A stretch of 31,092 nt of DNA from a virus, in IMG/VR virus record IMGVR_UViG_3300025769_000516, positions 1 through 31,092 of that record; one strand, 5' to 3'. The notes under the pieces were generated by a model that had not been told where the DNA came from, ran no database searches, and was given only the letters and a program-made list of their open reading frames with translations. Below are positions 3,381 through 25,302 of the stretch, piece by piece; the first letter of the stretch is position 1, and the number at the start of each line of letters is the position of its first letter. Both the position numbers and the translations under genes were made by a program.

Positions 3381-4607
3381 TTAAGTAATAACGCCACCGT
3401 CCACAACTGTATCACCGCCAGTAGAGATACCTGTCTCAAGATCACCGCCGTCAATCGCCTTGTCATCGATGGCGTATAGGGCGTCCGTAAGATTTATCCA
3501 TTGCCCATTTTGGCGGACGTAGTAGCCGCCGTCCTGAGGAGCTTCTGGAATACCACCAGTAACACTGGCCGATGGCAGGAAGAAAAAGCTGTAGTTGTGG
3601 TTGGGGTTGAAGCTGGGTTCAGGCCCAGGTGTGTCTATGTGGTTAACGCTTATCTCAAACCCGCTGGTGGTTTCGACATAGCCCGACACCTCGTACAAAT
3701 GAGCCTGAGAGGGATCATCCTCGCTTGCGACGTAAAGCTGACCAGTTAGTGGCAGTAGAGCGTCAAGCAACAGCTCTACGTCATTACCAGCCTCATTGAT
3801 TTTGCTGACATGAAAAAGGGTAACTTGATCGGCCTGATCTTCGCCGTGCGTGTGAAACTTGCGGTTATGAGGCTCCCCAGTTTCTTCATGGTATTGCCAG
3901 ATGATTGTTGAACCCATTTGGCCTGTGACCACTGTGGTTGATCCACCACCGCCGCCGCCAGACAGGACTGAAGTCTCTCGGGTAAAGCGATTAGCCCACC
4001 TAACCCCATCGTACATCAAGACCTGTCCCCTCTCAAGGGGCAGCACAGAGCCAACTTCTACGTCTTTGAGGTCGTCAAGATTGGCATTCGTGGCTAGAAA
4101 GTCTTTTCCGTCACGACCAGCAGCTCCTTGAGGACCAGTCTTTCCAGGGGCTCCGTCTCGGCCAGGCTTGCCTGAGTTAACAAGCAACATCCTGTCTTGT
4201 ATGTCCTCCGCAATGCTTTCAAACCTCCTTTCAATTGACTCCATCCATCCAGTCGGAGGCATTAAAGGTGGAGCCTCTTTCGTATCTGGGCGAATCTCGG
4301 TTTTATTGGTCTTAAACTCTTTGACGGTCGCCTCAATGATCAAGCCCAGGTTAAAACTAAAGCCTGGCAAAAGACGACGCATCTCCTCGAATAATAGGTC
4401 GTCAGGTTCTGATCCGTCAGACTCGACCCAGATCTTCCAGGTCGCCTCGAACTCGTCAACCGTTGGATATCTTTCCACGTAAACGTAAAACCCTTCCCTT
4501 CCTGAAGCGACAGGCTTCTTGTCGACAATACGAACTTCAGAAAGCGATAGACGAAGGACCCCGCTGTCATTCAGAATTTCTACGATGTCAGCAGAGCTTA
4601 GGATCAT
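3381..4607 (-). CDS. Collagen-like virion/fibre-associated protein, 408 aa
   Basis: ATG start at 4607. Residues 1-100 form a mixed alpha/beta N-terminal domain that I do not recognise. Residues 146-169 are eight consecutive Gly-X-Y triplets (GKPGRDGAPGKTGPQGAAGR and on), a short collagen-like stalk that usually drives trimerisation in phage fibres. Next comes a fibre module LDDLKDVEVGSVLPLERGQV ending in MYDGVRWAN, then a six-glycine linker and a beta-rich C-terminal half with repeated YYVRQNGQWINL-type sequence. Role: probable structural tail fibre or adhesin, cooperating with the large fibre coded immediately downstream (30-base gap). No enzymatic motif was seen. Related modules occur in the proteins at 17056-18126 and 18155-19387. 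Confidence 0.7.
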   Translation of the reverse strand: MILSSADIVEILNDSGVLRLSLSEVRIVDKKPVASGREGFYVYVERYPTVDEFEATWKIWVESDGSEPDDLLFEEMRRLLPGFSFNLGLIIEATVKEFKTNKTEIRPDTKEAPPLMPPTGWMESIERRFESIAEDIQDRMLLVNSGKPGRDGAPGKTGPQGAAGRDGKDFLATNANLDDLKDVEVGSVLPLERGQVLMYDGVRWANRFTRETSVLSGGGGGGSTTVVTGQMGSTIIWQYHEETGEPHNRKFHTHGEDQADQVTLFHVSKINEAGNDVELLLDALLPLTGQLYVASEDDPSQAHLYEVSGYVETTSGFEISVNHIDTPGPEPSFNPNHNYSFFFLPSASVTGGIPEAPQDGGYYVRQNGQWINLTDALYAIDDKAIDGGDLETGISTGGDTVVDGGVIT

Positions 4608-5569: not shown

Positions 5570-5800
5570 TTACTTACCGTTGATTGGAGCCATTAAGGCT
5601 AGTATGATTGCAATGTATGTTTCGGCTGCTCTTTGAAGTATGCCTGTGCTATTACTGCATTGCTCAGGTATGCTTTGCTCACCCCTAAGGATAAGAGTTC
5701 TACAGCCAGCAGCTCCCAGGCCCAGGAATGAAAGATGGAATACCATCAAAAAGGCAAGCATTCCAAAGGCCCAAGTAGCTTTGTTCTTCAACATTTCCAT
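5570..5800 (-). CDS. Small two-pass membrane protein, 76 aa
   Basis: ATG at 5800, inside the end of the upstream gene (13-base overlap). Hydrophobic segments at about residues 9-30 (AFGMLAFLMVFHLSFLGLG) and 58-72 (TYIAIILALMAP) flank a polar loop with two cysteines (C33, C48), which may pair if the loop is on the oxidising side. The family is unknown to me. Size, two passes and phage context would allow a holin, but nothing specific shows it. Followed after two bases by the 37-residue basic peptide. Confidence 0.65.
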   Translation of the reverse strand: MEMLKNKATWAFGMLAFLMVFHLSFLGLGAAGCRTLILRGEQSIPEQCSNSTGILQRAAETYIAIILALMAPINGK

Positions 5801-6045
5801 CTACGGCGAGCAGCTTTACCACGCTCACCAGTCCAGCTCCTGCTTCTAGAGCAGAAAGACTTGCGACGCTTGGCATCCTTGCTTCCAGGCTTGACGCGAC
5901 CCGTAACTGGAGCCTTCAGGTTAGATCCTGTTTTGGCGTTGATACGCTTACGACCCTTAGCAGTAAGCCCTCCAGCCTTAGACTTGCAGCCGTTCTTGAC
6001 GCCGCAGCCTTTCATGCTGCCAGTTTTCTTCTTGGCTGCCGCCAT
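5788..6045 (-). CDS. Basic Cys-containing phage protein (DUF6321-like), 85 aa
   Basis: ATG at 6045 with GGGAAGG a few bases upstream. Basic throughout; it has a GGLTAKGRKR motif, a GSNLKAPVTG stretch and a C-terminal segment RRKSFCSRSRSW ending RRRWKC. That pattern (GGLxxKGR, then KRRKSFCxR, then KW.C at the end) matches my memory of a domain of unknown function found in many marine phages (DUF6321); the name should be checked. Function unknown; nucleic-acid binding is plausible from charge. It is preceded by an exact GGNATNCTAG element 20 bases upstream, which contains the stop codon of the HNH gene. Confidence 0.75.
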   Translation of the reverse strand: MAAAKKKTGSMKGCGVKNGCKSKAGGLTAKGRKRINAKTGSNLKAPVTGRVKPGSKDAKRRKSFCSRSRSWTGERGKAARRRWKC

Positions 6046-6065
6046 TGGCCTTCCCGAGAACTATT

Positions 6066-6075
6066 CTAGGATGCC
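6066..6075 (-). promoter_or_regulatory. GGNATNCTAG element before DUF6321-like gene
   Basis: Exact match, GGCATCCTAG, 20 bases before the ATG at 6045. Its TAG is the stop codon of the HNH endonuclease gene, so the element lies within the coding end of the upstream gene. Confidence 0.5.
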
Positions 6076-6527
6076 AGTTTTACTGCCTCAATCGCTTCGG
6101 CTTCAGTCCTAAACCTGCCAAGGTAAATCTTCTTGCCTCCAATCCTTGGCTGTGCCTGCCACTTGCCGTCCTTAAGTCTAGTGACACCCATGCCGTTCAG
6201 GCCGCGAGCCTTAAGAGATCTCTGCAAGTTTTCACGATGACTGACGTCCTGAAGGCCGTGAAACACATTGCTCTTAGTAGAAGCTCCCTCTTGTCCAACG
6301 TGATCAATTTCGCCAACTGGGTCGCGCCCTGTCACCCACTTCCAGACCAGTCTGTGCGCCAAGTACTTCGTCTTGTCTATTGCCGCCATGCGGTACCCGT
6401 CTGGGTTTATGTAGCCAGCCACTGCGCCAGCCTTGACGCCTTTGCGTGGCAGGTGATGAAGCTCGCCTGTCAGTGGATTGTAAGCAAAGCGGCTCCAGAG
6501 AAGCTCGGTAGAGGGCAGTTGTTTCAT
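6066..6527 (-). CDS. HNH homing endonuclease with C-terminal AP2-like domain, 153 aa
   Basis: I chose the ATG at 6527 (MKQLPSTELLWSRF) because the longer upstream frame overlaps the neighbouring gene and lacks family features. Residues 12-60 hold the usual N-terminal strands (YNPLTGELHHL, GYINPDGYRMAAI) leading to AHRLVW. The HNH core is residues 58-100: H58, the D75-H76 pair (GEIDHVG) and N100 in DVSHRENLQR. Residues 113-153 form an AP2-like DNA-binding segment (GVTRLKDGKWQAQPRIGGKK, YLGRFRTEAEAIEA). Such proteins cut specific DNA sites and spread as selfish free-standing genes in phages. The D-H and final N are present, so it may be active. It sits between two small basic-protein genes. Confidence 0.85.
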   Translation of the reverse strand: MKQLPSTELLWSRFAYNPLTGELHHLPRKGVKAGAVAGYINPDGYRMAAIDKTKYLAHRLVWKWVTGRDPVGEIDHVGQEGASTKSNVFHGLQDVSHRENLQRSLKARGLNGMGVTRLKDGKWQAQPRIGGKKIYLGRFRTEAEAIEAVKLAS

Positions 6528-6531
6528 GCCC

Positions 6532-6541
6532 TTAGTATACC
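6532..6541 (-). promoter_or_regulatory. GGNATNCTA variant just before HNH gene
   Basis: GGTATACTAA lies only four bases before the ATG at 6527 and includes a good -10-like TATACT. Its distance to the start differs from the 17-21 bases seen elsewhere; the adjoining AAGGG may simply be the ribosome binding site. Low confidence as a promoter. Confidence 0.25.
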
Positions 6542-6552
6542 GCAACCGATAC

Positions 6553-6762
6553 CTACTTCCTTTTCTTTTTAAGGAAAGCAGGCATCTTCTTGTCGCCTTT
6601 TTTAGTAGCGGGCTTTTTGCCAGCGGGCTTTTTAGCTGTCTTAGCAGCTTTCTTGAATGCAGAAGCCTTAGGAGCGCCTTTAGCACCAGGCTTACGCATT
6701 TCTTCTTTGGAGCCAGAAGCGATACGCTTTTTCTTGGCGTTGATGTTTTTGTAGAGTGACAT
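6553..6762 (-). CDS. Lysine-rich conserved phage protein, 69 aa
   Basis: ATG at 6762, sharing one base with the stop of the upstream gene (TAATG). The N-terminal part, SLYKNINAKKKRIASGSKEE followed by MRKPGAKGAPKASAFKKAAK, has the look of a small protein conserved across many tailed phages; the C-terminal half is a low-complexity Lys/Ala/Pro tail. 26 of 69 residues are Lys or Arg. Function unknown; internal DNA-binding virion protein or nucleic-acid chaperone would fit the charge. Coupled to the 108-residue basic protein upstream. Confidence 0.75.
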   Translation of the reverse strand: MSLYKNINAKKKRIASGSKEEMRKPGAKGAPKASAFKKAAKTAKKPAGKKPATKKGDKKMPAFLKKKRK

Positions 6763-7088
6763 TAGCTTTTCTTTTTGGAACGAGGCTTGTAGCCTGGCTT
6801 AGACTTCCGTTTTGCTCCACCTTCAGCTAGTCGACCGTTCTTACCGTGTCCGTTCCTAGCCCTGTTCTTGCTGGCATTCTCCAACTTGAATTTTCCACCC
6901 TTTGCATGACTGACATCAGGGCCGCCTTTGCCCATGATACCCCGAGCCCGTCGCTCTTTCGCTAGCTCAGCACGGTACTTTTTGCGACCAGGTTTTGCGT
7001 TACGCTTCTTGTCGTAAGCAAGTTTTTTCTTGTAAGCTTCGGGATTGCTTGCGTAAAAACTAGCAGTGCTCCTCTTCTTGGCGGCCAT
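6762..7088 (-). CDS. Basic protein with DxSH/NASKNR motif, 108 aa
   Basis: ATG at 7088 (MAAKKRSTASFYASNPEAYK). Residues 18-50 are a basic helix; residues 57-80 read PDVSHAKGGKFKLENASKNR followed by ARNG; the tail is Lys/Gly/Ser-rich. The motif D58-x-S-H61 with N71 and N75 is spaced somewhat like an HNH core but lacks the rest of the domain. This kind of protein recurs in marine phages with unknown role. First gene of the basic cluster; a promoter-like element lies 19 bases upstream, in the divergent region shared with the plus-strand gene at 7154. Confidence 0.7.
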   Translation of the reverse strand: MAAKKRSTASFYASNPEAYKKKLAYDKKRNAKPGRKKYRAELAKERRARGIMGKGGPDVSHAKGGKFKLENASKNRARNGHGKNGRLAEGGAKRKSKPGYKPRSKKKS

Positions 7089-14943: not shown

Positions 14944-14953
14944 GTAGTATGCC
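14944..14953 (-). promoter_or_regulatory. GGNATNCTAC element before scaffold gene
   Basis: GGCATACTAC, 37 bases before the ATG at 14906; its first G is the last base of the upstream stop codon. The extra distance relative to other copies roughly equals the inserted leader hairpin. Confidence 0.45.
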
Positions 14954-15555
14954 TAAGGGCAAACAATCCTGTCCGTTGCAGTATTGACAGCTGAGGCGAC
15001 TAGAGTGAAGCAAGAAGGGATGCTAGATACGCCTTCACTTTGACGAGCACTGGCCGCAGGAGCAACACAACCTTGAGGAAGAGGGCTTGGGGCTACATAC
15101 ACGTCAGCTCTCAAAGGTTGGATATCAGTTCCGTTGGACTGGGCGACAGACTGGGTCCTGAGGACATTGTCAGGTGTGTTGTCGCAAAGAGTAGGGAATC
15201 TATACTCTAGCAGGGCTCCTCGTGTTCTTGTCCCGCAACTAGACGGACTGTAGAAGAGTTTCACGCTGACATCCTGTGGATCAAGTCCTGTAAGCGACGG
15301 GCTTCCACACAGGATAAGGGGGTCGCTGCAATACTCGCTGCTGCAAGGGATTCCGTTGGTAACGACTTTTCCGTCCACCATGGTGACTACCATGTAGAGG
15401 GAGACACAACCCTGTTCGCAATCACAGGTGCTCGCATTAAAGTCTCCGGCACCGCAGCAGGGATCTTGAGGGTTGTAAGCCAGGCCCTCGTTAGGACCGA
15501 AGAGACACTTATTTTTTTTGTCGCAAGTCTTCATGTCGGCAGCGCAGATACCCAT
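14953..15555 (-). CDS. Cysteine-rich virion-type protein, 200 aa
   Basis: ATG at 15555, directly abutting the stop of the 129-residue gene. Sixteen cysteines, mostly in the first 85 residues (MGICAADMKTCDKKNKCLFG, DPCCGAGDFNASTCDCEQGC), then a more ordinary beta-rich part (DVSVKLFYSPSSCGTRTRGA). It recalls the 553-residue cysteine-rich protein at 19747 in style and in the CxxC and CC patterns. Metal binding or disulphide bonding outside the cell would both explain the cysteines. Role unknown; virion location is inferred from the neighbours. Confidence 0.6.
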   Translation of the reverse strand: MGICAADMKTCDKKNKCLFGPNEGLAYNPQDPCCGAGDFNASTCDCEQGCVSLYMVVTMVDGKVVTNGIPCSSEYCSDPLILCGSPSLTGLDPQDVSVKLFYSPSSCGTRTRGALLEYRFPTLCDNTPDNVLRTQSVAQSNGTDIQPLRADVYVAPSPLPQGCVAPAASARQSEGVSSIPSCFTLVASAVNTATDRIVCP

Positions 15556-15945
15556 TTAGCGACTCCATTTCCTCTGAGGGCACAGCTGGTCAGGATCTCC
15601 ACCAACCCAAGTTTTTGCTTCCATAAAGCAGCCACAGTCGTTACAGCGCTTAGACTCAGGGTTAAACAAAGGACACGCCCTGCAAGTGGCGTAGCGCTCG
15701 TTACGGACCTCTTCGGAAACCTTCCCGTGTCTGACGGCCTGCCCAGCGGTCTTGAACAAACCACGTGCCATCTTGCCCGCAGAAGGTCCGACCTTTTTGT
15801 TGGTGAATCTCGGGTCAGCATAGATTGCCTTAGACTTGGAAGTCTCAGCCTGCGCCATCAAGGCTGCGTTCCTTTCTTCTGGCCACGCTGAGCATGGGCC
15901 GGTCGGGTAAGTTCCCGCCGACTTTAGTTCTTCCCTGAGATCCAT
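15556..15945 (-). CDS. Zinc-ribbon-like cysteine-cluster protein, 129 aa
   Basis: ATG at 15945 (MDLREELKSAGTYPTGPCSA). The C-terminal 45 residues carry the cluster: ATCRACPLFNPESKRCNDCG followed by CF, a basic stretch and LCPQRKW. The spacing CxxC-x9-CxxCxC with a late C is a typical small zinc-binding knuckle found in many phage and bacterial proteins of unknown function. The N-terminal part has a helical basic section (KMARGLFKTAGQAVRHGKVS). It could bind nucleic acid or be an assembly factor; nothing decides. Tightly linked to the cysteine-rich 200-residue protein. Confidence 0.65.
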   Translation of the reverse strand: MDLREELKSAGTYPTGPCSAWPEERNAALMAQAETSKSKAIYADPRFTNKKVGPSAGKMARGLFKTAGQAVRHGKVSEEVRNERYATCRACPLFNPESKRCNDCGCFMEAKTWVGGDPDQLCPQRKWSR

Positions 15946-17055: not shown

Positions 17056-18126
17056 TCAGGCCTCCACGGCAGATACTGTTAATGTCACATTAATGGCCTG
17101 GGTTGAACCAGATTTATTTACGACTTTGAGGTAAAGCTCGCTTACTGGAGTGGTTTCATCATTGAAATAGTTGATGCACGGAGTAATTGAGACCCTTTCG
17201 CTACCACTCGTGATAACCTCGGCGATGACACCCGAACCAGGCGCTGGATCAGTCGTCTCGGAACGACCGCTGTCAGACGTCCTGGCGGCTTGGGACACGT
17301 AGAGCGTCACCCAGGCAGCCTGATCAGTCTCGATGGCCAACAATTGGCCAGACTTGCCAGTGCTGGAAACGGTCACGTTCTCGCTTGCTCCATCCGCAAT
17401 AATTGAGGTGGTCGCTCCGGGCGTAGTCCTTCCGCCAGGTGTGGCAGGCTCCCATTGACTGTTAGCATCAACCCACGTCAGTACTTGGCCGTCGGCAGGA
17501 CCGGTACTCGGAACGGTTACAGTGGTGGTAAAGTAAAGAGAGCCTTGACCAGTGGGGACAATAGTCCGGTTGTCCATGTTGAACTTGACCCAGGTCACGG
17601 CTGGTGTCATCGACCCGGAGCTCGCACTGTTGCTGACGTAATTGAATATATAGTCTGTGTAACCGCTGCCGCTAGTACTGGATACACGAAGCGAGCCGCT
17701 CGTACCGCCGTTTCCGAACGTGAAGCCGTCGGGGAACATTGCATCAAAATCGTCACCGTTGGCATCAGTCCTATACAGGACTAGACCTTTATTACTGGAG
17801 GTGTATTCGTAAATGGAATAGTTACCAGTTTCCGTCTCTGCGCCAGTAGGGTGTGTGCCCTCGTTGTAGTATCTTTCCCCCGTGTCGATAGTATAGGTGT
17901 CATCCAGATCGTCAAGGCCCAAGACAACTACGCCCGTCTCACCGTTGACGCTGTCTACCGCACCACCACCAGAAATTGTTACAACGCTTCCGTCAGTATG
18001 TTTTGTGAACAGCTTCCCGTCAGCAGTATTAACAGCCAGCTCTGCGACTTCAAGATCAGACGCTTGAGGCTCTTCCGCAGCAGTCGCTGAAGCTTTAGCA
18101 ATAATACGTGCGTTAAGTTCAGCCAT
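17056..18126 (-). CDS. Modular tail fibre/adhesin, 356 aa
   Basis: ATG at 18126 (MAELNARIIAKASATAAEEP). Residues 20-55 are a short module (ADGKLFTKHTDGSVVTISGG) shared with the N-termini of the 96- and 410-residue proteins. Residues 58-75 (VDSVNGETGVVVLGLDDLDD) are a common phage-fibre element. A beta-rich central part follows, then ADGQVLTWVDANSQWEP at about 211-227. Residues 238-356 form a C-terminal domain (GQLLAIETDQAAWVTLYVSQ, GSGVIAEVITS, INYFNDETTPVSELYLKVVN) clearly related to that of the 410-residue protein. Probable virion adhesin; receptor unknown. Confidence 0.7.
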   Translation of the reverse strand: MAELNARIIAKASATAAEEPQASDLEVAELAVNTADGKLFTKHTDGSVVTISGGGAVDSVNGETGVVVLGLDDLDDTYTIDTGERYYNEGTHPTGAETETGNYSIYEYTSSNKGLVLYRTDANGDDFDAMFPDGFTFGNGGTSGSLRVSSTSGSGYTDYIFNYVSNSASSGSMTPAVTWVKFNMDNRTIVPTGQGSLYFTTTVTVPSTGPADGQVLTWVDANSQWEPATPGGRTTPGATTSIIADGASENVTVSSTGKSGQLLAIETDQAAWVTLYVSQAARTSDSGRSETTDPAPGSGVIAEVITSGSERVSITPCINYFNDETTPVSELYLKVVNKSGSTQAINVTLTVSAVEA

Positions 18127-18145: not shown

Positions 18146-18155
18146 CTAGTATTCC
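18146..18155 (-). promoter_or_regulatory. GGNATNCTAG element before 356-aa gene
   Basis: Exact match, GGAATACTAG, 19 bases before the ATG at 18126; its first G is the last base of the stop codon of the 410-residue gene. Confidence 0.5.
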
Positions 18156-19387
18156 TAGATGCCACTGCCAAAGGTTCCACCAGAGACTGAACTAATAGCC
18201 TGGTTCCCGTAAGCTACTATAGTCACCTCTGAGTTGACATCAGCACCTGCTTGATCCCTGACGGCAGCATAGACAGCCTCTGTGACAGAAGTGTCATTAT
18301 TGAAGTACGTGGTACCTGGAGTGGCCAGGACAGTAGTGCCAGCTGTGATGTAGAACTCGGCTAAGACTCCTGAGCCTGAAGCTGGGTCAGTATTGTAAGC
18401 CCTGCCATTGTCAGCCGTTCTGCTGGCTGCAGAGTCATACAGGACGATCCAGGTATCCAGGGAAGAGGTGACCTCCACGAGAGTACCAGAGTGCCCAATC
18501 CCCACAAAGGTAGCAACTCCGCTGGCTGCAGTCTGAGCTTCAGTCAGTCTCGCGGCAGAAGAGCCACCCCCGCCTCCACCGCCTGTAGCCGTCACGGTCA
18601 CGTCGCCAGTCGCCTGGTCGACAGAGATACCAGCGCCAGCAATAATACTTGTGACACCACCACTCTGATCAGCTGGAACCCAGCTAGCGCCGTTCCATGC
18701 CAGGACTTGATTGTTCGTTGGAGCTGCTGTGGTCGTGTCAACGTCCTGCAAGGCATCGATACTTGTGGTACCCAAGTCAGTAGCCACGTTGCCAGGGACC
18801 CACTCGGAATTGACGTTGTCCCACACAAGAGCCTGCCCGTCTGTGGGGGCTGCAGTCGTGGTGTCAACATCAGTTAGATCATTGATCGAGCCTACGGTAC
18901 TAGGAGTCGTCCATGACATCACTCCCGAGCCATCGGTAGTCAGCGCTTGGCCACTTGTGCCTGTATCGTTTGGGAAGACGAGAGTGTAGCTAGCGGCTGC
19001 GCTGTGAGGAGGCGACTTGAGTTTAATGCCGTGCGTATTTGCCTCGCAGTTGAGTTGAATGGCAGCATCGTTACCCGTATTTCCCATCACTTCCAAGACC
19101 CCAGTAGTGTCTGGAGCTATCTGGATGTTACCTGCAGCCGTGCTTATAATCTGAAAACTGTTAACATCTAGGTTTCCACCAAGCTGCGGTGCTGTGTCGT
19201 TAACAATCTCAATACCAGTGAGGTCAACCGTAGCAGACGTCAGAACTCCGCCTTCTATGACGTAAAGAGCGTTTTCGTCAGTTGCGTAACAAAGCTCACC
19301 TTCTTGCAGGTCCGACAGCCCTGCCGTAAGTGCAGCCAGCGTACCCCTAGCAACTCGTACTGGTACGCGGTAAGAGGGGACTGGCAT
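18155..19387 (-). CDS. Modular tail fibre/adhesin, 410 aa
   Basis: ATG at 19387 (MPVPSYRVPVRVARGTLAAL). The N-terminal 50 residues, with LQEGELCYATDENALYVIEG, resemble the start of the large fibre at 1-3350. Residues 100-160 (AAIQLNCEANTHGIKLKSPP, SGQALTTDGSGVMSWTT) are a cyanophage-style fibre domain. Two copies of a DVDTTTAAPTxxQ(A/V)L-W module follow (167-199 and 209-239), then a glycine linker. The C-terminal domain (281-398) is homologous to that of the 356-residue protein: WIVLYDSAASRTADNGRAYN, GSGVLAEFYI, YFNNDTSVTEAVYAAVRD. Virion adhesin by family resemblance; binding target not readable. Confidence 0.72.
   Translation of the reverse strand: MPVPSYRVPVRVARGTLAALTAGLSDLQEGELCYATDENALYVIEGGVLTSATVDLTGIEIVNDTAPQLGGNLDVNSFQIISTAAGNIQIAPDTTGVLEVMGNTGNDAAIQLNCEANTHGIKLKSPPHSAAASYTLVFPNDTGTSGQALTTDGSGVMSWTTPSTVGSINDLTDVDTTTAAPTDGQALVWDNVNSEWVPGNVATDLGTTSIDALQDVDTTTAAPTNNQVLAWNGASWVPADQSGGVTSIIAGAGISVDQATGDVTVTATGGGGGGGSSAARLTEAQTAASGVATFVGIGHSGTLVEVTSSLDTWIVLYDSAASRTADNGRAYNTDPASGSGVLAEFYITAGTTVLATPGTTYFNNDTSVTEAVYAAVRDQAGADVNSEVTIVAYGNQAISSVSGGTFGSGI
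18671..18889 (-). repeat. Two direct copies of a ~31-33-residue fibre module
   Basis: Residues 167-199 and 209-239 of the 410-residue adhesin share DVDTTTAAPT, then a Q-x-L-(V/A)-W core and a WVP end. The two DNA copies (18791-18889 and 18671-18763) are clearly similar and lie in tandem, about 126 bases apart. Confidence 0.75.
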
Positions 19388-19746: not shown

Positions 19747-21408
19747 CTAACAGCAATGGGTCTCGAACAAGGTGGTGTCAAGAAGGACAGGATCGAAAGG
19801 ACCGTCATTCCAATTGCAACTAGGGTCTTGGTAAGGGAAACATCGAACTGTCCCTCCGTCGCAAGGATCGTCTCCAGTGCCGTAATAGTTCGCGATAAGC
19901 AGGCGGGATCGCGCAGCGGGGTCTGTACAGGCGACCGGTTGGCCACTACAGTCACTCCCAGTGGCGCCGCACTCGCACGGACCGACTAGCGACATCTGCG
20001 CAGGTCCTCCAATAGAGAGGAAGGAACTAACTGAACTTGGGCCCATCCTGACTTCATTAATGTAGATGTCTACCAGCTTTTTACCACTTTCGCAGCAAGC
20101 TTGACCATCTTGGTCAGGGGCTGGTCTATAACAGGTCTCACCTGAATCGCAACAGCCGCCAGAAGCTTGAGGGCATATCGGGCCGTCACAGTCAGGGCAG
20201 GCGGGATCTGGTACGCATTCGCCCGAAGCGCTACATATCTCGCAGTTCTTGCAGTCGCTATCACAATGGCAGTCACATTCTCCGCACTCTGGAGGCACGT
20301 TCGTTTTGTCGCAGACCGTCCTGATGTAACAGGTCCTGCCGCCTGCACTAATGCTGCCATTGTCGGTACAAGAAGCGCCGTCAGGGCAAGGAGGTAGTGG
20401 CCCGTCGCAGAAGTGTTCCCCATAGCATTCGCCAACGCATGGATCAATGGGCTCGTCGTCGTCGTCAGGCGGAGTGCAGGCCGCATAGCAATTCTGCCAA
20501 GCCTTATCTAGGCAAGCCCGCCTCCCTGCAGTGGTTATACAGCCTGGCTCGCAGCACTTTGTCGTGTTTATAGCGCAGCCGCAATTGACGTTAACAGTGT
20601 AACAAGCTTGGCAGTTCTCACAGTCTTTTCTCCACTCTCCTGTGCCCATGCACTTCTGGCATTCCTCTGGCGGATCATTAATGCTCTGAGGGCACCAGCA
20701 ATTGGCATCTTCAGGCTCAAGAGGCACACACTCTCTAGGCTGGAAGCTTTCCACGAGCCTACATGCCTCGCACTGAGTGCAGGTATTCTCTTCAGTGCAT
20801 CCCATAGTACGCCGCCCATAGGCGGCATAGAAGGCCGCACAGAAAGCGTCGCAATTCACCTTTGGCGGAGGGCATGGACCGCACGTGCAGCGGACGAATC
20901 CGTCATCCCCTCGCTGGCAGCACTTCTGCTTATTGCAACAAGTGTCATCACCTGGATTGCCCCCGGATTCGCCGCAAGTGCTTTTGGTACAGTCCCCGGT
21001 ACCGCATTTATCGCCGTTATCCGCGTCATCCCCACAACCAGAGGTGCCTCCACCCGAGCCCGAGGCTCCTGCACTTGACTGAGCACATTTCCCCCCGATA
21101 CAAGACCACCCTGAAGCACAATTGTTGCTGTCGAAACAGTTCTGAATGTGTCGACCAGTATTCCACGTACTCCCATCCGAAGCGGTAAGAGAGATGCTCC
21201 CGTCCGACATGTTCCACCCGCCATTCGAGGCTCTGTTAATCGCGGTGATAGGGCTGCTGTTTCCTGCACCTCTGCTCGACGGATAGAGCATCGAAGAGGA
21301 GCTTGGAAGTGTTGGACCTCTCGACGAACTGGACGCTGCCGAACTTGTCGACGAACTGAGCGCTGCCGAATCTCGCTTTTTGTCTTTCCAGTAATCAGAG
21401 AGTCCCAT
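19747..21408 (-). CDS. Extremely cysteine-rich protein, 69 Cys in 553 aa
   Basis: ATG at 21408 (MGLSDYWKDKKRDSAALSSS). Residues 17-65 are a serine-rich disordered linker. From about residue 90 to the end I count 69 cysteines, in patterns such as NCASGWSCIGGKC, CCNKQKCCQRG, CTQCEACRLV, CGECDCHCDSDCKNCEIC and GGCCDSGETC. The spacing resembles eukaryote-like disulphide-rich modules (EGF-like or knottin-like repeats); zinc clusters are an alternative. A short cysteine-free insert at about 430-460 (KKLVDIYINEVRMGPSSVSS) is beta-rich. It is flanked by adhesin genes and its own promoter-like element. Probably an exposed virion protein; no known family assigned. No frameshift or stop interrupts it. 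Confidence 0.7.
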   Translation of the reverse strand: MGLSDYWKDKKRDSAALSSSTSSAASSSSRGPTLPSSSSMLYPSSRGAGNSSPITAINRASNGGWNMSDGSISLTASDGSTWNTGRHIQNCFDSNNCASGWSCIGGKCAQSSAGASGSGGGTSGCGDDADNGDKCGTGDCTKSTCGESGGNPGDDTCCNKQKCCQRGDDGFVRCTCGPCPPPKVNCDAFCAAFYAAYGRRTMGCTEENTCTQCEACRLVESFQPRECVPLEPEDANCWCPQSINDPPEECQKCMGTGEWRKDCENCQACYTVNVNCGCAINTTKCCEPGCITTAGRRACLDKAWQNCYAACTPPDDDDEPIDPCVGECYGEHFCDGPLPPCPDGASCTDNGSISAGGRTCYIRTVCDKTNVPPECGECDCHCDSDCKNCEICSASGECVPDPACPDCDGPICPQASGGCCDSGETCYRPAPDQDGQACCESGKKLVDIYINEVRMGPSSVSSFLSIGGPAQMSLVGPCECGATGSDCSGQPVACTDPAARSRLLIANYYGTGDDPCDGGTVRCFPYQDPSCNWNDGPFDPVLLDTTLFETHCC

Positions 21409-21426: not shown

Positions 21427-21436
21427 CTAGGATGCC
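21427..21436 (-). promoter_or_regulatory. GGNATNCTAG element before cysteine-rich gene
   Basis: Exact match, GGCATCCTAG, 18 bases before the ATG at 21408. Its TAG is the stop codon of the 114-residue gene. Confidence 0.5.
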
Positions 21437-21771
21437 GACGGGAAGTAAAGGTCATAAGCTGGATCTTTCTCTTTCTCTGTTCGCGGGTCTTCGTAGGTAA
21501 TGCCCGTCCCAACCTCCTTCCACTCAAAGAAATTAGCAGAGGTCTCGATAGCGATATACACTATAATGTTTGTAGTTCCTGTCGGCACGGTGAAAATCAT
21601 CTGACCCTCCCATTGAGGGTTGTAATACACTATTTCAAGGACTCCGTCGACGGAGGTAACCTCGTAAAGCGGAGGAGGTCCTTGTGTCTCTATAATAGGA
21701 CACGCGACAAAAGGAGTATCAGCCTTCCTGATAGTCGGGCCCGCATCGATAATGGGGTTGTTTATTGCCAT
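21427..21771 (-). CDS. Small beta-rich tail-region protein, 114 aa
   Basis: ATG at 21771, sharing a base with the upstream stop (TGATG). MAINNPIIDAGPTIRKADTP, then beta strands (YEVTSVDGVLEIVYYNPQWE, MIFTVPTGTTNIIVYIAIET) and a charged end. The N-terminus echoes that of the 70-residue neighbour (MAIN). Probably a small virion subunit; no family recognised. Its stop lies within the promoter-like element of the next gene. Confidence 0.6.
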   Translation of the reverse strand: MAINNPIIDAGPTIRKADTPFVACPIIETQGPPPLYEVTSVDGVLEIVYYNPQWEGQMIFTVPTGTTNIIVYIAIETSANFFEWKEVGTGITYEDPRTEKEKDPAYDLYFPSAS

Positions 21772-21983
21772 CAGACTGGGAGGAATCTAAGTCCAGAAGC
21801 TGAAACGACGTAAAGACTTACCTGATCTGTCGCCGCATTGTAGTAGGCGTACAGCTTCCCGGGTGGAAGCGCTACGTCAAGAACCTTGTCAGGCCCTGGC
21901 GGCCTTTGTACTAGGATCTCTACAGTCGTATCGGTATTCTCTGTGACCGATTTCCCTCCGAGAGATGATCTATTGATAGCCAT
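21771..21983 (-). CDS. Small beta-rich protein, 70 aa
   Basis: ATG at 21983, two bases after the upstream stop. MAINRSSLGGKSVTENTDTT, then VEILVQRPPG and LYAYYNAATDQVSLYVVSAS: short beta-rich domain, no membrane helix. Part of a tightly packed four-gene run (22992-21427). Function unknown; a small tail or fibre accessory is likely from context. Confidence 0.6.
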   Translation of the reverse strand: MAINRSSLGGKSVTENTDTTVEILVQRPPGPDKVLDVALPPGKLYAYYNAATDQVSLYVVSASGLRFLPV

Positions 21984-21985
21984 GA

Positions 21986-22249
21986 TTAGAATTTGCTGTA
22001 GTAAATGCCGTTAGCGAAACTGAGCTCAACCTCGGTTCCTGCGGGGATGGAAATAAAACCAATCGGCTTCGTGTTGTAGTCCTTGTTGTTGTATCTGACG
22101 ACACCTTCTCCGCTATCCCCAAGCCTAACCCAGCTCCCCGTAACGCTGCCGACGAAGTCCCCTTTAACAGTTGTGTCAGATGCCCTGAACTCAAGGTCCA
22201 CTAGCCTGTTGGAGGTGCTTATAGCTTTAAGCTGATCCTGCATGGCCAT
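21986..22249 (-). CDS. Small beta-rich protein, 87 aa
   Basis: I choose the ATG at 22249 (MAMQDQLKAISTSNRLVDLE), two bases after the stop of the upstream gene; the longer in-frame start would run back through that gene. The body is beta-rich (KGDFVGSVTGSWVRLGDSGE, GFISIPAGTEVELSFANGIY). The VRYNNKDYNTKPIG stretch suggests a small barrel. A second in-frame ATG lies at 22243. Function unknown. Confidence 0.6.
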   Translation of the reverse strand: MAMQDQLKAISTSNRLVDLEFRASDTTVKGDFVGSVTGSWVRLGDSGEGVVRYNNKDYNTKPIGFISIPAGTEVELSFANGIYYSKF

Positions 22250-22251
22250 GA

Positions 22252-22992
22252 TCAATTCCCAGTAAAGAATCCGAACTGCTTGAGGTTCCAATAGAAGACA
22301 GCCTCGTTGCCACCTGACAAGACGACAGGAGAGGTTGTTGCAGCTACGCACAAGATCTGCCCTGCGTTCGACGGAGCGTAAGTGGTGCCTACCGTAAAGC
22401 CGAGACCACCCGCGCCAGCAGTAACAGCCCCTAAACCAGCCAAGACACCTTCAGAAATTCCTAACGTATCCCCTGGAGCGTAGTTGTATCCAGACCTTCC
22501 TAAGGTAAGAGCATAGTCAGTGCTAGTAGCGCCGCTATTGCTGATCGTTAAGTCTGCAGTCAAGCCTACGCCACTGCCGCTGGTGATGTCGATAGGGATA
22601 TTGGTATAGGTCCCGTCGACCCCGGCTGTCGGAGCGGACCCAACGGAACCCAGTGTCAGTACGTTTCCAGTACTCCAGACGACAACAGCATGAGAGAAAT
22701 CCATCTGGGTCGCTCCTCCATCATGAGCGAAGATGGTAGCCTTTTGCTCCAGCCCCACCCCGTCGTCAGCGTAAGTACTTACGTCGCCTGAGATATAGTT
22801 AAAAGTCTGTCGCTGGTAACCAGCAGTACCTGCAACCACCTCGAAGGATAGGAAGTTGGCATCATCGGTGAAACCTGGTTCGTAGACCGTGCCTGGCGCG
22901 TTGATCAGGCGACCCTCAAAATATTGATCGACAAAACGATTGGTGACCTGAGCGGTCACTTCATCGCTCGAGATATGGGCGGTGATTGCCAT
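22252..22992 (-). CDS. Beta-rich virion protein with GYxxGD domain, 246 aa
   Basis: The ATG at 22992 (MAITAHISSDEVTAQVTNRF) is preferred to the in-frame ATG at 23013, because it restores the usual distance to the promoter-like element. The central part is beta-rich (YTNIPIDITSGSGVGLTADL) and contains TLGRSGYNYAPGDTLGIS at about residues 165-182, the GxGYxxGD motif of a domain common in cyanophage structural proteins. The same domain type appears in the open stretch after the tail tube stop. Likely a tail or baseplate decoration protein. Confidence 0.65.
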   Translation of the reverse strand: MAITAHISSDEVTAQVTNRFVDQYFEGRLINAPGTVYEPGFTDDANFLSFEVVAGTAGYQRQTFNYISGDVSTYADDGVGLEQKATIFAHDGGATQMDFSHAVVVWSTGNVLTLGSVGSAPTAGVDGTYTNIPIDITSGSGVGLTADLTISNSGATSTDYALTLGRSGYNYAPGDTLGISEGVLAGLGAVTAGAGGLGFTVGTTYAPSNAGQILCVAATTSPVVLSGGNEAVFYWNLKQFGFFTGN

Positions 22993-23013
22993 TTGTGGTT
23001 TCTCAGAATCCAC

Positions 23014-23031: not shown

Positions 23032-25302
23032 TTAAGCAAACAGGTCTTCTGTTACAATGGTCGCGCCGACGACAATGAGGTTGCCGTTATCCTCCAGGGG
23101 AACACTGCCGTTGCTTTCCGTCTCCAGCAGATCCCCCGGCCCGACGACAACGCCTGTGACCATAATGCCAGTCATAAGCTGAGGCGTCTCGTTGTAAGAG
23201 GCGGGAAGGGAGGGGATCACCCCGTCATTGCCAAAGGTCACTGCGTTTACCGCTGTACCAAAATGAACGTCCACTTTCCAGGCAAATGCCCCGCTGTCGA
23301 CGGAAGTCTCGCCGTCAATGGCTGGAGGCACTACATCTGTAGCTGGTCCTCCGCCACTCCCCATGTCAGGTCGAGAATCCCCCCGAAGGTTTTTGGGTAG
23401 CGTTACGGATCCATTAGAGGCCCCAAGCCAAATTCCATTAGTAACAAAGGCACTCTCGTCTGTCCCTACGCCCCAGGTCGTGGCATCCATCCTCATCGCG
23501 AGAACCCTGTTCTTGGAAGCGTCGTAGTAACGGAAGGGCATTCCTGGACGCCAGTTGGTCGAGACGTCACTCCTCAGGCCTTCTGCTATCTGCAGTCCAA
23601 AACTGTCTCCCTTAATAAAACGCTCAAGGTAGTTACTGTAAGCAGCCACAGTGGAATCGATCTCGGACTGGTCGGAGAAAAGCAGTGGAACAGGGATCTG
23701 CTCTTGGGCGATGTAAGGGCCAGTCTCGGAGGGAGTGCTCGTGTATCTGCCTGAAAACAGTACGATGCTAGTGCTTTTCTCCTCTGTCGAGGTGGTAGCA
23801 CTATTGACTCGGTCGGGAGCGATCTCAACAGTAGCACTTGTAGTAGACCTCCTGATCTGAGTAGTTACGATACCATTTAGAGCGTCGATGTTACCAGACA
23901 GTCCAGTACCTCTCGCGGTAGCAACGCTTTGATAAGTGACGTCTTTTTGTACGTTGGAGGATCCTTCCTGATAGTAGGTAGTATCTACCCTGCTAACCCT
24001 AAACAATTGATTTGGAGAAAGGCGCTGAAAATCCTGAGGCACGCCGTTCCTCATGCCAGAGCGCCAGTCACTGGGTTGCGCCGCCGAGAGAGTCGTAGAA
24101 TAGGTGTCGGTGACTGTTCTGATAAGCTCGTTTGCGCTGCCGTAATAGTTAACCACAGTTGAATAGCCAAGGAGCACCCTCTCCAGTCCTTCCATGGGGC
24201 AGTTGCCGTCAGGAAGGCACCTAACAGCATTGATCGATCGGCAGTAAGCGTAACGGTCGGCGTAGTGCTGTCCATTCGCCTCGATGGCTGGACCGTAGAA
24301 CGCTTGGAACTGTCTAGATACCTGGGCACCAGGCCCGTCGTAGGTAGTGGTCGCAATTTGCTGGCTCGTGACAGGAACGTATGCATTCTCTTGAACTGTG
24401 TCCCAATTCTCCAAGCAAACAAGCGTCCAGTAACCACTCTCGTCTGCTGTCGGAGGCGGCTGATTCCCGCAACCAACAGAGCTGCTTGGCTGTGGTTTTG
24501 TTTTTAGAGTTTCGACCCATACGGGAGTCTTGTATCCGATCTCGCCAGTAAGAACGTTGGTTGTATACCCGTTCCTCCTGAACCTCATGGCAGGATATCT
24601 TGTAAAATAGTAAGAGTCCGTCGTAACAGTATCGACACGACCTTTGCTATCCTCATTCAATCCGTCGGCTGGAACCTGGTAAGAAAGCTCGATAATATCA
24701 GGAACAGCACCTGAGCCCTGAAGAGGGGCTACCGAAGTCGCGGTAACACCCAGGATTGAAATCCACTCCCCAGGAGCAACGCCATCGTATCCGTCTCCGC
24801 TGAAGAATTCTCCAGTAGTTAGAGCCCCTGTGTTGTCCTGGAAGACGTACATACCCTTGGAGGCAAATGCCGCCGAACAGTTAGAGTAGGTCGTCTGGGC
24901 GATATCAAGACTTATAGGCGTTATCGCCACCAGTTCATCAATCTCCTCCGTCAGTGCCATCAGAACCAGCCTGCAGCCCAGCTCGACCTGCAGCTGCTCG
25001 CTCTCGATATCGTAGGACGTCGTGATCACATGAAGATAGCCCCTTGGGTGTCTGTAAGGGGCTCCACCGGGCTCTGTGACGTCTAGAGTTACAACCGTAC
25101 CACGACGAAAATGATCCCTGTCGTAGTCTTCTGTGATCGCTCCTCCTGGCCGAGAGCCGAGTATTAGCGTCCCCGACGTCTGAATACAGCCGTTCTTCAT
25201 GGCTGATTCGTCGGAGACAGTCCACTCCACCATCGAGGAGGTATAATCGATGCCACCTATAGCAAGGGAAGCGACTCTTGTCTGACTAACTAAATACGAC
25301 AT
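23032..25302 (-). CDS. Tail hub/tail-tip protein, 756 aa
   Basis: ATG at 25302, sharing the region next to the stop of the 133-residue gene. Residues 1-130 (RVASLAIGGIDYTSSMVEWT, TSGTLILGSRPG, GTVVTLDVTEPGGAPYRHPR, GYLHVITTSYDIESEQLQVE) have the strand pattern of tail hub proteins, with a small beta-barrel. The middle is long and mixed; residues 560-640 include a helical stretch (DSTVAAYSNYLERFIKGDSF) followed by RPGMPFRYYDASKNRVLAMR. Position after the tape measure and a small distal-tail-like protein supports a hub at the tip of the tail shaft. No peptidase or lysozyme motif was seen. The family name is not assigned. Confidence 0.7.
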   Translation of the reverse strand: MSYLVSQTRVASLAIGGIDYTSSMVEWTVSDESAMKNGCIQTSGTLILGSRPGGAITEDYDRDHFRRGTVVTLDVTEPGGAPYRHPRGYLHVITTSYDIESEQLQVELGCRLVLMALTEEIDELVAITPISLDIAQTTYSNCSAAFASKGMYVFQDNTGALTTGEFFSGDGYDGVAPGEWISILGVTATSVAPLQGSGAVPDIIELSYQVPADGLNEDSKGRVDTVTTDSYYFTRYPAMRFRRNGYTTNVLTGEIGYKTPVWVETLKTKPQPSSSVGCGNQPPPTADESGYWTLVCLENWDTVQENAYVPVTSQQIATTTYDGPGAQVSRQFQAFYGPAIEANGQHYADRYAYCRSINAVRCLPDGNCPMEGLERVLLGYSTVVNYYGSANELIRTVTDTYSTTLSAAQPSDWRSGMRNGVPQDFQRLSPNQLFRVSRVDTTYYQEGSSNVQKDVTYQSVATARGTGLSGNIDALNGIVTTQIRRSTTSATVEIAPDRVNSATTSTEEKSTSIVLFSGRYTSTPSETGPYIAQEQIPVPLLFSDQSEIDSTVAAYSNYLERFIKGDSFGLQIAEGLRSDVSTNWRPGMPFRYYDASKNRVLAMRMDATTWGVGTDESAFVTNGIWLGASNGSVTLPKNLRGDSRPDMGSGGGPATDVVPPAIDGETSVDSGAFAWKVDVHFGTAVNAVTFGNDGVIPSLPASYNETPQLMTGIMVTGVVVGPGDLLETESNGSVPLEDNGNLIVVGATIVTEDLFA

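Follow-up and report, generated by a model that had tools for sequence, protein, structure and literature searches.

Phage tail fibres are usually stabilised by β-helices and coiled coils, and to our knowledge dozens of disulphides are rare in proteins of the bacterial cytoplasm. A disulphide network has nevertheless been found in the virion of Agrobacterium phage Milano (PMC10811340), and disulphides are likewise present in the virion of coliphage T1 (PMC11945409); virion proteins made in the cytoplasm can thus end up disulphide-bonded. Cysteine (Cys) residues that hold an iron-sulphur cluster are known from tail-tip proteins, namely lambda gpL and the hub of roseophage R4C (PMC10721106, PMC10276861). 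A further point of reference is the Prochlorococcus siphovirus P-SS2, whose gp084 (L011:10658-18496) is composed of 2612 residues including 282 Cys (10.8%). Proteomics of purified P-SS2 particles yielded an average of 43 gp084 peptides in three replicates (Sullivan 2009, PMC2784084), a value equal to that of the hub counterpart gp079 (43) and close to that of gp092 (43.5), which places gp084 among the better-detected P-SS2 proteins. Its neighbours from the hub through gp083 were all detected in virions, and gp085 gave no peptides (PMC2784084). The word “cysteine” does not occur in that report and the samples were treated with DTT and iodoacetamide (PMC2784084); because they were thereby reduced and alkylated, the proteomic data are silent on disulphides in gp084.

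The stretch of DNA analysed here, referred to as the window, is a virus record of 31,092 bases. Its capsid and tail genes mark it as part of the genome of a Synechococcus siphovirus akin to S-CBS2 and S-CRES1-3: the capsid gene is ca. 80% identical at the DNA level to those of the Synechococcus siphoviruses S-CRES1-3 and S-CBS2, and for the tail genes, too, the matches lie in these phages and, at a greater distance, in P-SS2. An open reading frame with an ATG start on the minus strand (19747-21408) encodes a protein of 553 residues, 69 of which are Cys (12.5%). The first-pass annotation had described one Cys in eight residues, arranged in CC, CxC and CxxC patterns behind a serine-rich linker. 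Count and coordinates proved exact, the Cys-Cys spacings include 6 CC, 6 CxC and 10 CxxC, and a Ser-rich stretch at about residues 14–60 indeed precedes the first Cys at position 91. In the 27 likely genes that make up the rest of the window, Cys accounts for only 55 of 7457 residues (0.74%), and chance cannot explain the excess (binomial log10 P = −59.6 for at least 69 Cys in 553 residues, with the other window genes as background). The only other Cys-rich genes of the window are found at 14953-15555, at 15556-15945 and in a short ORF at 5788-6045 (4 Cys in 85 residues).

The gene, termed CYS, is embedded in the following tail module.

23032..25302, minus strand: tail hub-like protein, used as syntenic marker
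22252..23013, minus strand: tail-module protein homologous to the P-SS2 virion protein gp081
21986..22246, minus strand: small tail-module protein in the position of P-SS2 gp082
21771..21983, minus strand: small tail-module protein in the position of P-SS2 gp083
21427..21771, minus strand: small tail-module protein directly upstream of the CYS gene, present in a subset of relatives only
19747..21408, minus strand: CYS gene, putative Cys-rich tail-tip protein of 553 residues with 69 Cys (from the ORF, its translation and same-slot homologues)
18155..19387, minus strand: downstream tail-fibre gene (PHROGs phrog_9627, phrog_677 baseplate wedge tail fibre connector; synteny)
17056..18126, minus strand: second downstream fibre gene (PHROGs, synteny)

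The overall gene order is hub, three to four small tail genes, CYS gene, fibres, Zn-ribbon gene, second Cys gene, scaffold and major capsid protein (MCP). The succession hub, small tail genes, CYS, fibres, scaffold and MCP is kept in S-CBS2, S-CRES1-3 and the IMG/VR loci, and P-SS2 retains the tail portion of the hub-CYS-fibre order. A CYS gene lies 3′ of the hub in nearly all hub-bearing loci that are complete enough, the match in L030 comprising 41 residues only. The hub itself is 45–66% identical across relatives and 29–44% identical in the diverged loci L010, L023, L024 and L030 and in P-SS2 gp079.

Further observations concern the remainder of the window. The Zn-ribbon-like gene (15556-15945, minus strand; phrog_13558, 129 residues, 7 Cys) adjoins the fibre genes in most relatives and has a distant homologue in P-SS2 gp085, the protein devoid of virion peptides. 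The second Cys gene (14953-15555, minus strand; 200 residues, 16 Cys) combines a conserved N-terminal module of ca. 47 residues (CLFGPNEGxAYNPxDPCCGxGxFNASxCDC) with a C-terminal part that differs among most relatives, one type being common to L015 and L025; as in CYS, the Cys module is fixed while the end can be exchanged. A 408-residue protein with collagen-like GXX repeats is encoded at 3381-4607 (minus strand), and a series of small, very Lys-rich ORFs, some with sequence of the type KKKTGSMKGCGVKNGCKSKAGG, extends over 5788-7088 (minus strand).

Homologues of the CYS gene, 18 in number and 336–576 residues long, were found in S-CBS2, S-CRES1-3 and at least 13 IMG/VR contigs. The counterparts by slot and sequence in the named phages are S-CBS2 gp029, S-CRES1 gp85, S-CRES2 gp91 and S-CRES3 gp92, all annotated as “hypothetical protein”. 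Most members align with the window protein at 24–49% identity (blastp, E down to 2e-88), and the S-CRES3 gene is matched with an E-value of 7e-30 (tblastn). The window protein shares with the family, defined here after the S-CBS2 gp029 type, the homologous Cys core, the slot between hub and fibres and the N-terminal module. These homologues in the same slot, together with the synonymous excess between S-CRES1 and S-CRES2 (62 synonymous versus 42 non-synonymous codon changes, with 0 of 53 Cys altered), identify the ORF as a real gene, and by homology and position CYS is a conserved, unnamed tail-module gene of cyanosiphoviruses. A parity rule for the number of Cys, which ranges from 41 to 69, was dropped because odd (69, 61, 59, 53) and even totals (54, 52, 50, 48) both occur. 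The relatives in viral contigs were found with the profiles A1/A2; a scan of the contigs for close relatives with the window protein alone as query gave no match. Profile A2 returned 33 pattern stretches and no relative from 84,980 bacterial and archaeal genomes, a scan whose one-motif pattern could miss distant ones. Within cyanosiphovirus tails the family seems to be old and to evolve rapidly.

Database and fold searches did not connect the family to any described protein class. A Pfam search with 12 members, the window protein among them, gave no match at E ≤ 1, and no PHROGs or NCBIfam model covers the window protein; the CYS family is without a database name. A sequence search of the PDB with the window protein gave no match, and a fold search of the PDB with a low-confidence model no clear match (best Z 3.3). 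The eukaryotic EGF- or knottin-type repeats, which the first-pass annotation considered the closest look-alikes, were not recovered with Pfam profiles or PDB sequences, nor did the low-confidence model show a clear fold match, and the question of a eukaryotic EGF origin raised with them finds no support there. Among viral models (BFVD) one strong match emerged, F4YCL0 (500 residues, E 4e-18), which, taken from its length, appears to be the S-CBS2 homologue gp029. A literature search for Cys-rich tail proteins of phages, including cyanophages, turned up no work on the CYS family, and as far as these searches show a Cys-based fibre architecture is undescribed.

The protein can be divided into the following parts.

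21142..21408, minus strand, residues 1–89: N-terminal part without Cys, proposed virion anchor (from alignments)
21085..21138, minus strand, residues 91–108: module CFDSNNCASGWSCIGGKC, present once in 19 of 19 members, with 4 invariant Cys
20197..21138, minus strand, residues 91–404: conserved Cys core with 53 Cys; among 17 aligned members, 36 of the 53 columns conserved in at least 80% are Cys columns
19750..20196, minus strand, residues 405–553: C-terminal domain of class A, judged exchangeable from tail comparison and core tree, 149 residues with 16 Cys

The N-terminus starts with a Trp-containing segment (MGLSDYW in the window protein, MGLNAYW in S-CRES1/2 and similar in others), and the Ser-rich spacer behind it is peculiar to the window phage. 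The adjacent module follows the pattern C-x5-C-[AG]-x-G-[WYF]-x-C-x4-C in all 19 members and is predicted to form two short strands. It is succeeded by a Gly-rich linker and the long Cys core, which closes with a motif like CDCHCDSDCKNCEICSASGECVPDPAC. AlphaFold provided a poor model of the whole protein (mean pLDDT 52) and a better one of the core (15 sequences; mean pLDDT 69.7, ca. 85–94 at residues 265–309 and 327–367), consisting of short two-stranded hairpins and one confident β-α-β region at residues ~265–367. The structure prediction advised by the first-pass annotation delivered hairpins and a β-α-β region within a low-confidence model, which had no clear counterpart among solved structures.

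For a protein with so many Cys the first-pass annotation had left a choice between stabilising disulphides and a metal-loaded domain, and the pattern of Cys substitution indirectly supports the former. Among the variable Cys columns of the core, coupling at phi ≥ 0.8 links 7 of 300 column pairs, whereas for nine other residues it links 17 of 8044 (Fisher P 1.5e-5); this coupling may partly reflect ancestry and gaps, and some pairs show single exceptions. In several lineages both Cys of the pair 163/179 or 246/259 have been substituted jointly. Positions 328/366 and 334/360, likewise coupled, conform to one antiparallel register, as both pairs sum to 694, and fall on the predicted strands 327–334 and 358–367. 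Such paired gain and loss, together with the constancy of Cys between S-CRES1 and S-CRES2, fits disulphides better than four-ligand clusters, and disulphides rather than metal are likely in the window protein. Coordination of Zn or Fe-S clusters, which would turn the protein into a metal-loaded part of the tail tip comparable to the [4Fe-4S] domain of lambda gpL, has the precedent of the Fe-S tail-tip proteins mentioned above, the abundance of CxxC and CxC and the reducing nature of the cytoplasm in which the protein folds in its favour. We nevertheless consider it unlikely, because proteins of the gpL/R4C type possess four Cys and not 41–69, Cys are lost mostly in twos and not in fours, and His is scarce (0–8 per family protein) and absent from conserved columns. 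Moreover, a cluster load of this size would presumably be costly in iron-poor seawater. Nor did a known intracellular metal-binding family emerge, the outcome which the first-pass annotation had set against its own reading; Zn-ribbon, metallothionein and ferredoxin profiles gave no significant match to the window protein.

The C-terminal domain follows a different course from the core. The type found in the window protein recurs only in L013 (39% identity, E 4e-26) and S-CRES3 (35%), whereas L012, nearest to the window protein in the core, carries another domain common to L006 and S-CRES1/2; L025, L014, L017 and others lack a C-terminal domain altogether. Mapped onto the core tree, the domain classes require 9 changes, and shuffling the labels does not raise this number. 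The well-supported branches by themselves impose a minimum of three changes on either of the two main classes and of five on the absence of the domain. Judged from these sequence comparisons, the domain has been exchanged, acquired or dropped in conflict with the core tree. Exchange of this kind is expected of host-contact or receptor-binding tips, and we infer that the C-terminal domain might mediate receptor contact. The domain is also a candidate for determining host range in phages that infect abundant marine cyanobacteria. An exposed fibre or adhesin, as proposed in the first-pass annotation, would agree with such an exchangeable domain.

The location of the window protein in the virion, surmised in the first-pass annotation from its genomic region, is well supported through the P-SS2 counterpart: in relatives the gene lies between tail-tip and fibre genes, and the P-SS2 protein in the matching slot, gp084, is a virion component. 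Both proteins contain more than 10% Cys. Alignment of gp084 with the CYS family is insignificant by hhalign (E 0.007, probability 5%), and the module HMM scores 4.6 bits, a level attained by 4 of 200 shuffles; as homology is unproven by sequence, the virion evidence rests on the slot, the Cys richness and similar short motifs. A relative of gp084 in the environmental contig L035, reached through the P-SS2 hub, keeps 247 of 247 alignable Cys at 62% identity of the other residues. The first 1281 residues of gp084 retrieved by tblastn only gp084 itself from phages and nothing from viral contigs. Its sole Pfam contact is DUF7107 (PF23416), a short Cys-rich repeat found on 7 stretches (24.9 bits versus a cut-off of 24.6); at E ≤ 1 this family matches neither the window protein nor 11 relatives. 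NCBIfam yielded coiled-coil look-alikes in its C-terminus only. A non-structural protein encoded among tail genes, e.g. an assembly chaperone or a released effector, would be compatible with the confinement of virion proteomics to P-SS2, the “hypothetical” annotation of S-CBS2 gp029 and the peptide-free neighbour gp085. Given the 43 peptides of gp084 from purified virions and the detection of the hub-to-gp083 neighbours, we regard this alternative as highly improbable.

On balance, we consider it reasonably probable that the CYS protein is a structural protein of the tail tip, namely an N-terminally held accessory fibre whose shaft is stapled by disulphides and which in many phages bears an exchangeable host-contact domain at its tip, and that it becomes oxidised after lysis. 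According to this proposal the window protein would form a short fibre on the siphovirus tail tip, to which its N-terminus might serve as anchor. The shaft would be a chain of small β-hairpin modules stapled by perhaps 25–30 disulphide bonds, and the C-terminal domain, where present, would touch the host surface. Synthesis in the host cytoplasm would yield the reduced form; after assembly onto the tail, oxidation would follow once lysis frees the virion into oxygenated water, resulting in a fibre that resists unfolding and proteases. The exposed, disulphide-stabilised fibre suggested by the first-pass annotation thus stands as the best available reading, in which we infer both the disulphides and the exposure.

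The bonds might also act as a redox trigger, i.e. disulphides of the tip lock the free virion until reduction at the host surface releases a conformational change for DNA ejection. The disulphides in the Milano sheath and baseplate must be reduced for contraction (PMC10811340), a precedent for bonds that gate infection. Redox genes would also agree with the idea: S-CRES2, S-CBS2 and S-CRES3 (records L002, L003 and L004) have ORFs that exceed the Pfam cut-off as glutaredoxin-like, and P-SS2 has a thioredoxin-like one. However, such genes are common in phages and nothing connects them with the CYS protein, siphovirus tails do not contract, and stability alone explains the conserved Cys pattern, so that we deem a trigger quite unlikely. 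As a speculation of which we are similarly doubtful, cyanosiphoviruses might possess an entire class of disulphide-stapled virion fibres, with ca. 50 to just under 300 Cys per chain, that fold through oxidation solely after burst and serve as a redox-dependent device, being stiff and resistant to proteases in oxygenated water and loosened by reductants where they meet the photosynthesising host. Irrespective of such extensions of the accessory-fibre proposal, a conserved protein with 41–69 Cys and a virion counterpart with 282 point to another mode of building tail fibres and raise the question of when and how the bonds form, for which cultured phages exist in S-CBS2, P-SS2 and S-CRES1-3.

Compared with known systems, the window protein is closest to S-CBS2 gp029, S-CRES3 gp92, S-CRES1 gp85 and S-CRES2 gp91, which are known from sequence and share its slot, N-terminal Cys module and core but possess a different or divergent C-terminal domain. 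P-SS2 gp084 resembles it in its slot after the hub and the small tail genes, its very high Cys content and the lack of a database name; it deviates in the missing significant sequence match to the window family, a fivefold length, at least 24 short repeats C-x(3-5)-D-C-x-C-x-C and a long C-terminal coiled coil. Milano and T1 offer disulphides in virion parts made in the bacterial cytoplasm, as proposed for the window protein, but the bonds are low in number and for the most part connect subunits in the sheath, baseplate or tube, and neither phage has a Cys-rich fibre. Lambda gpL, RcGTA gp13 and the R4C hub are, like the window protein, Cys-bearing proteins of the tail tip, whereas their four Cys hold one [4Fe-4S] cluster.
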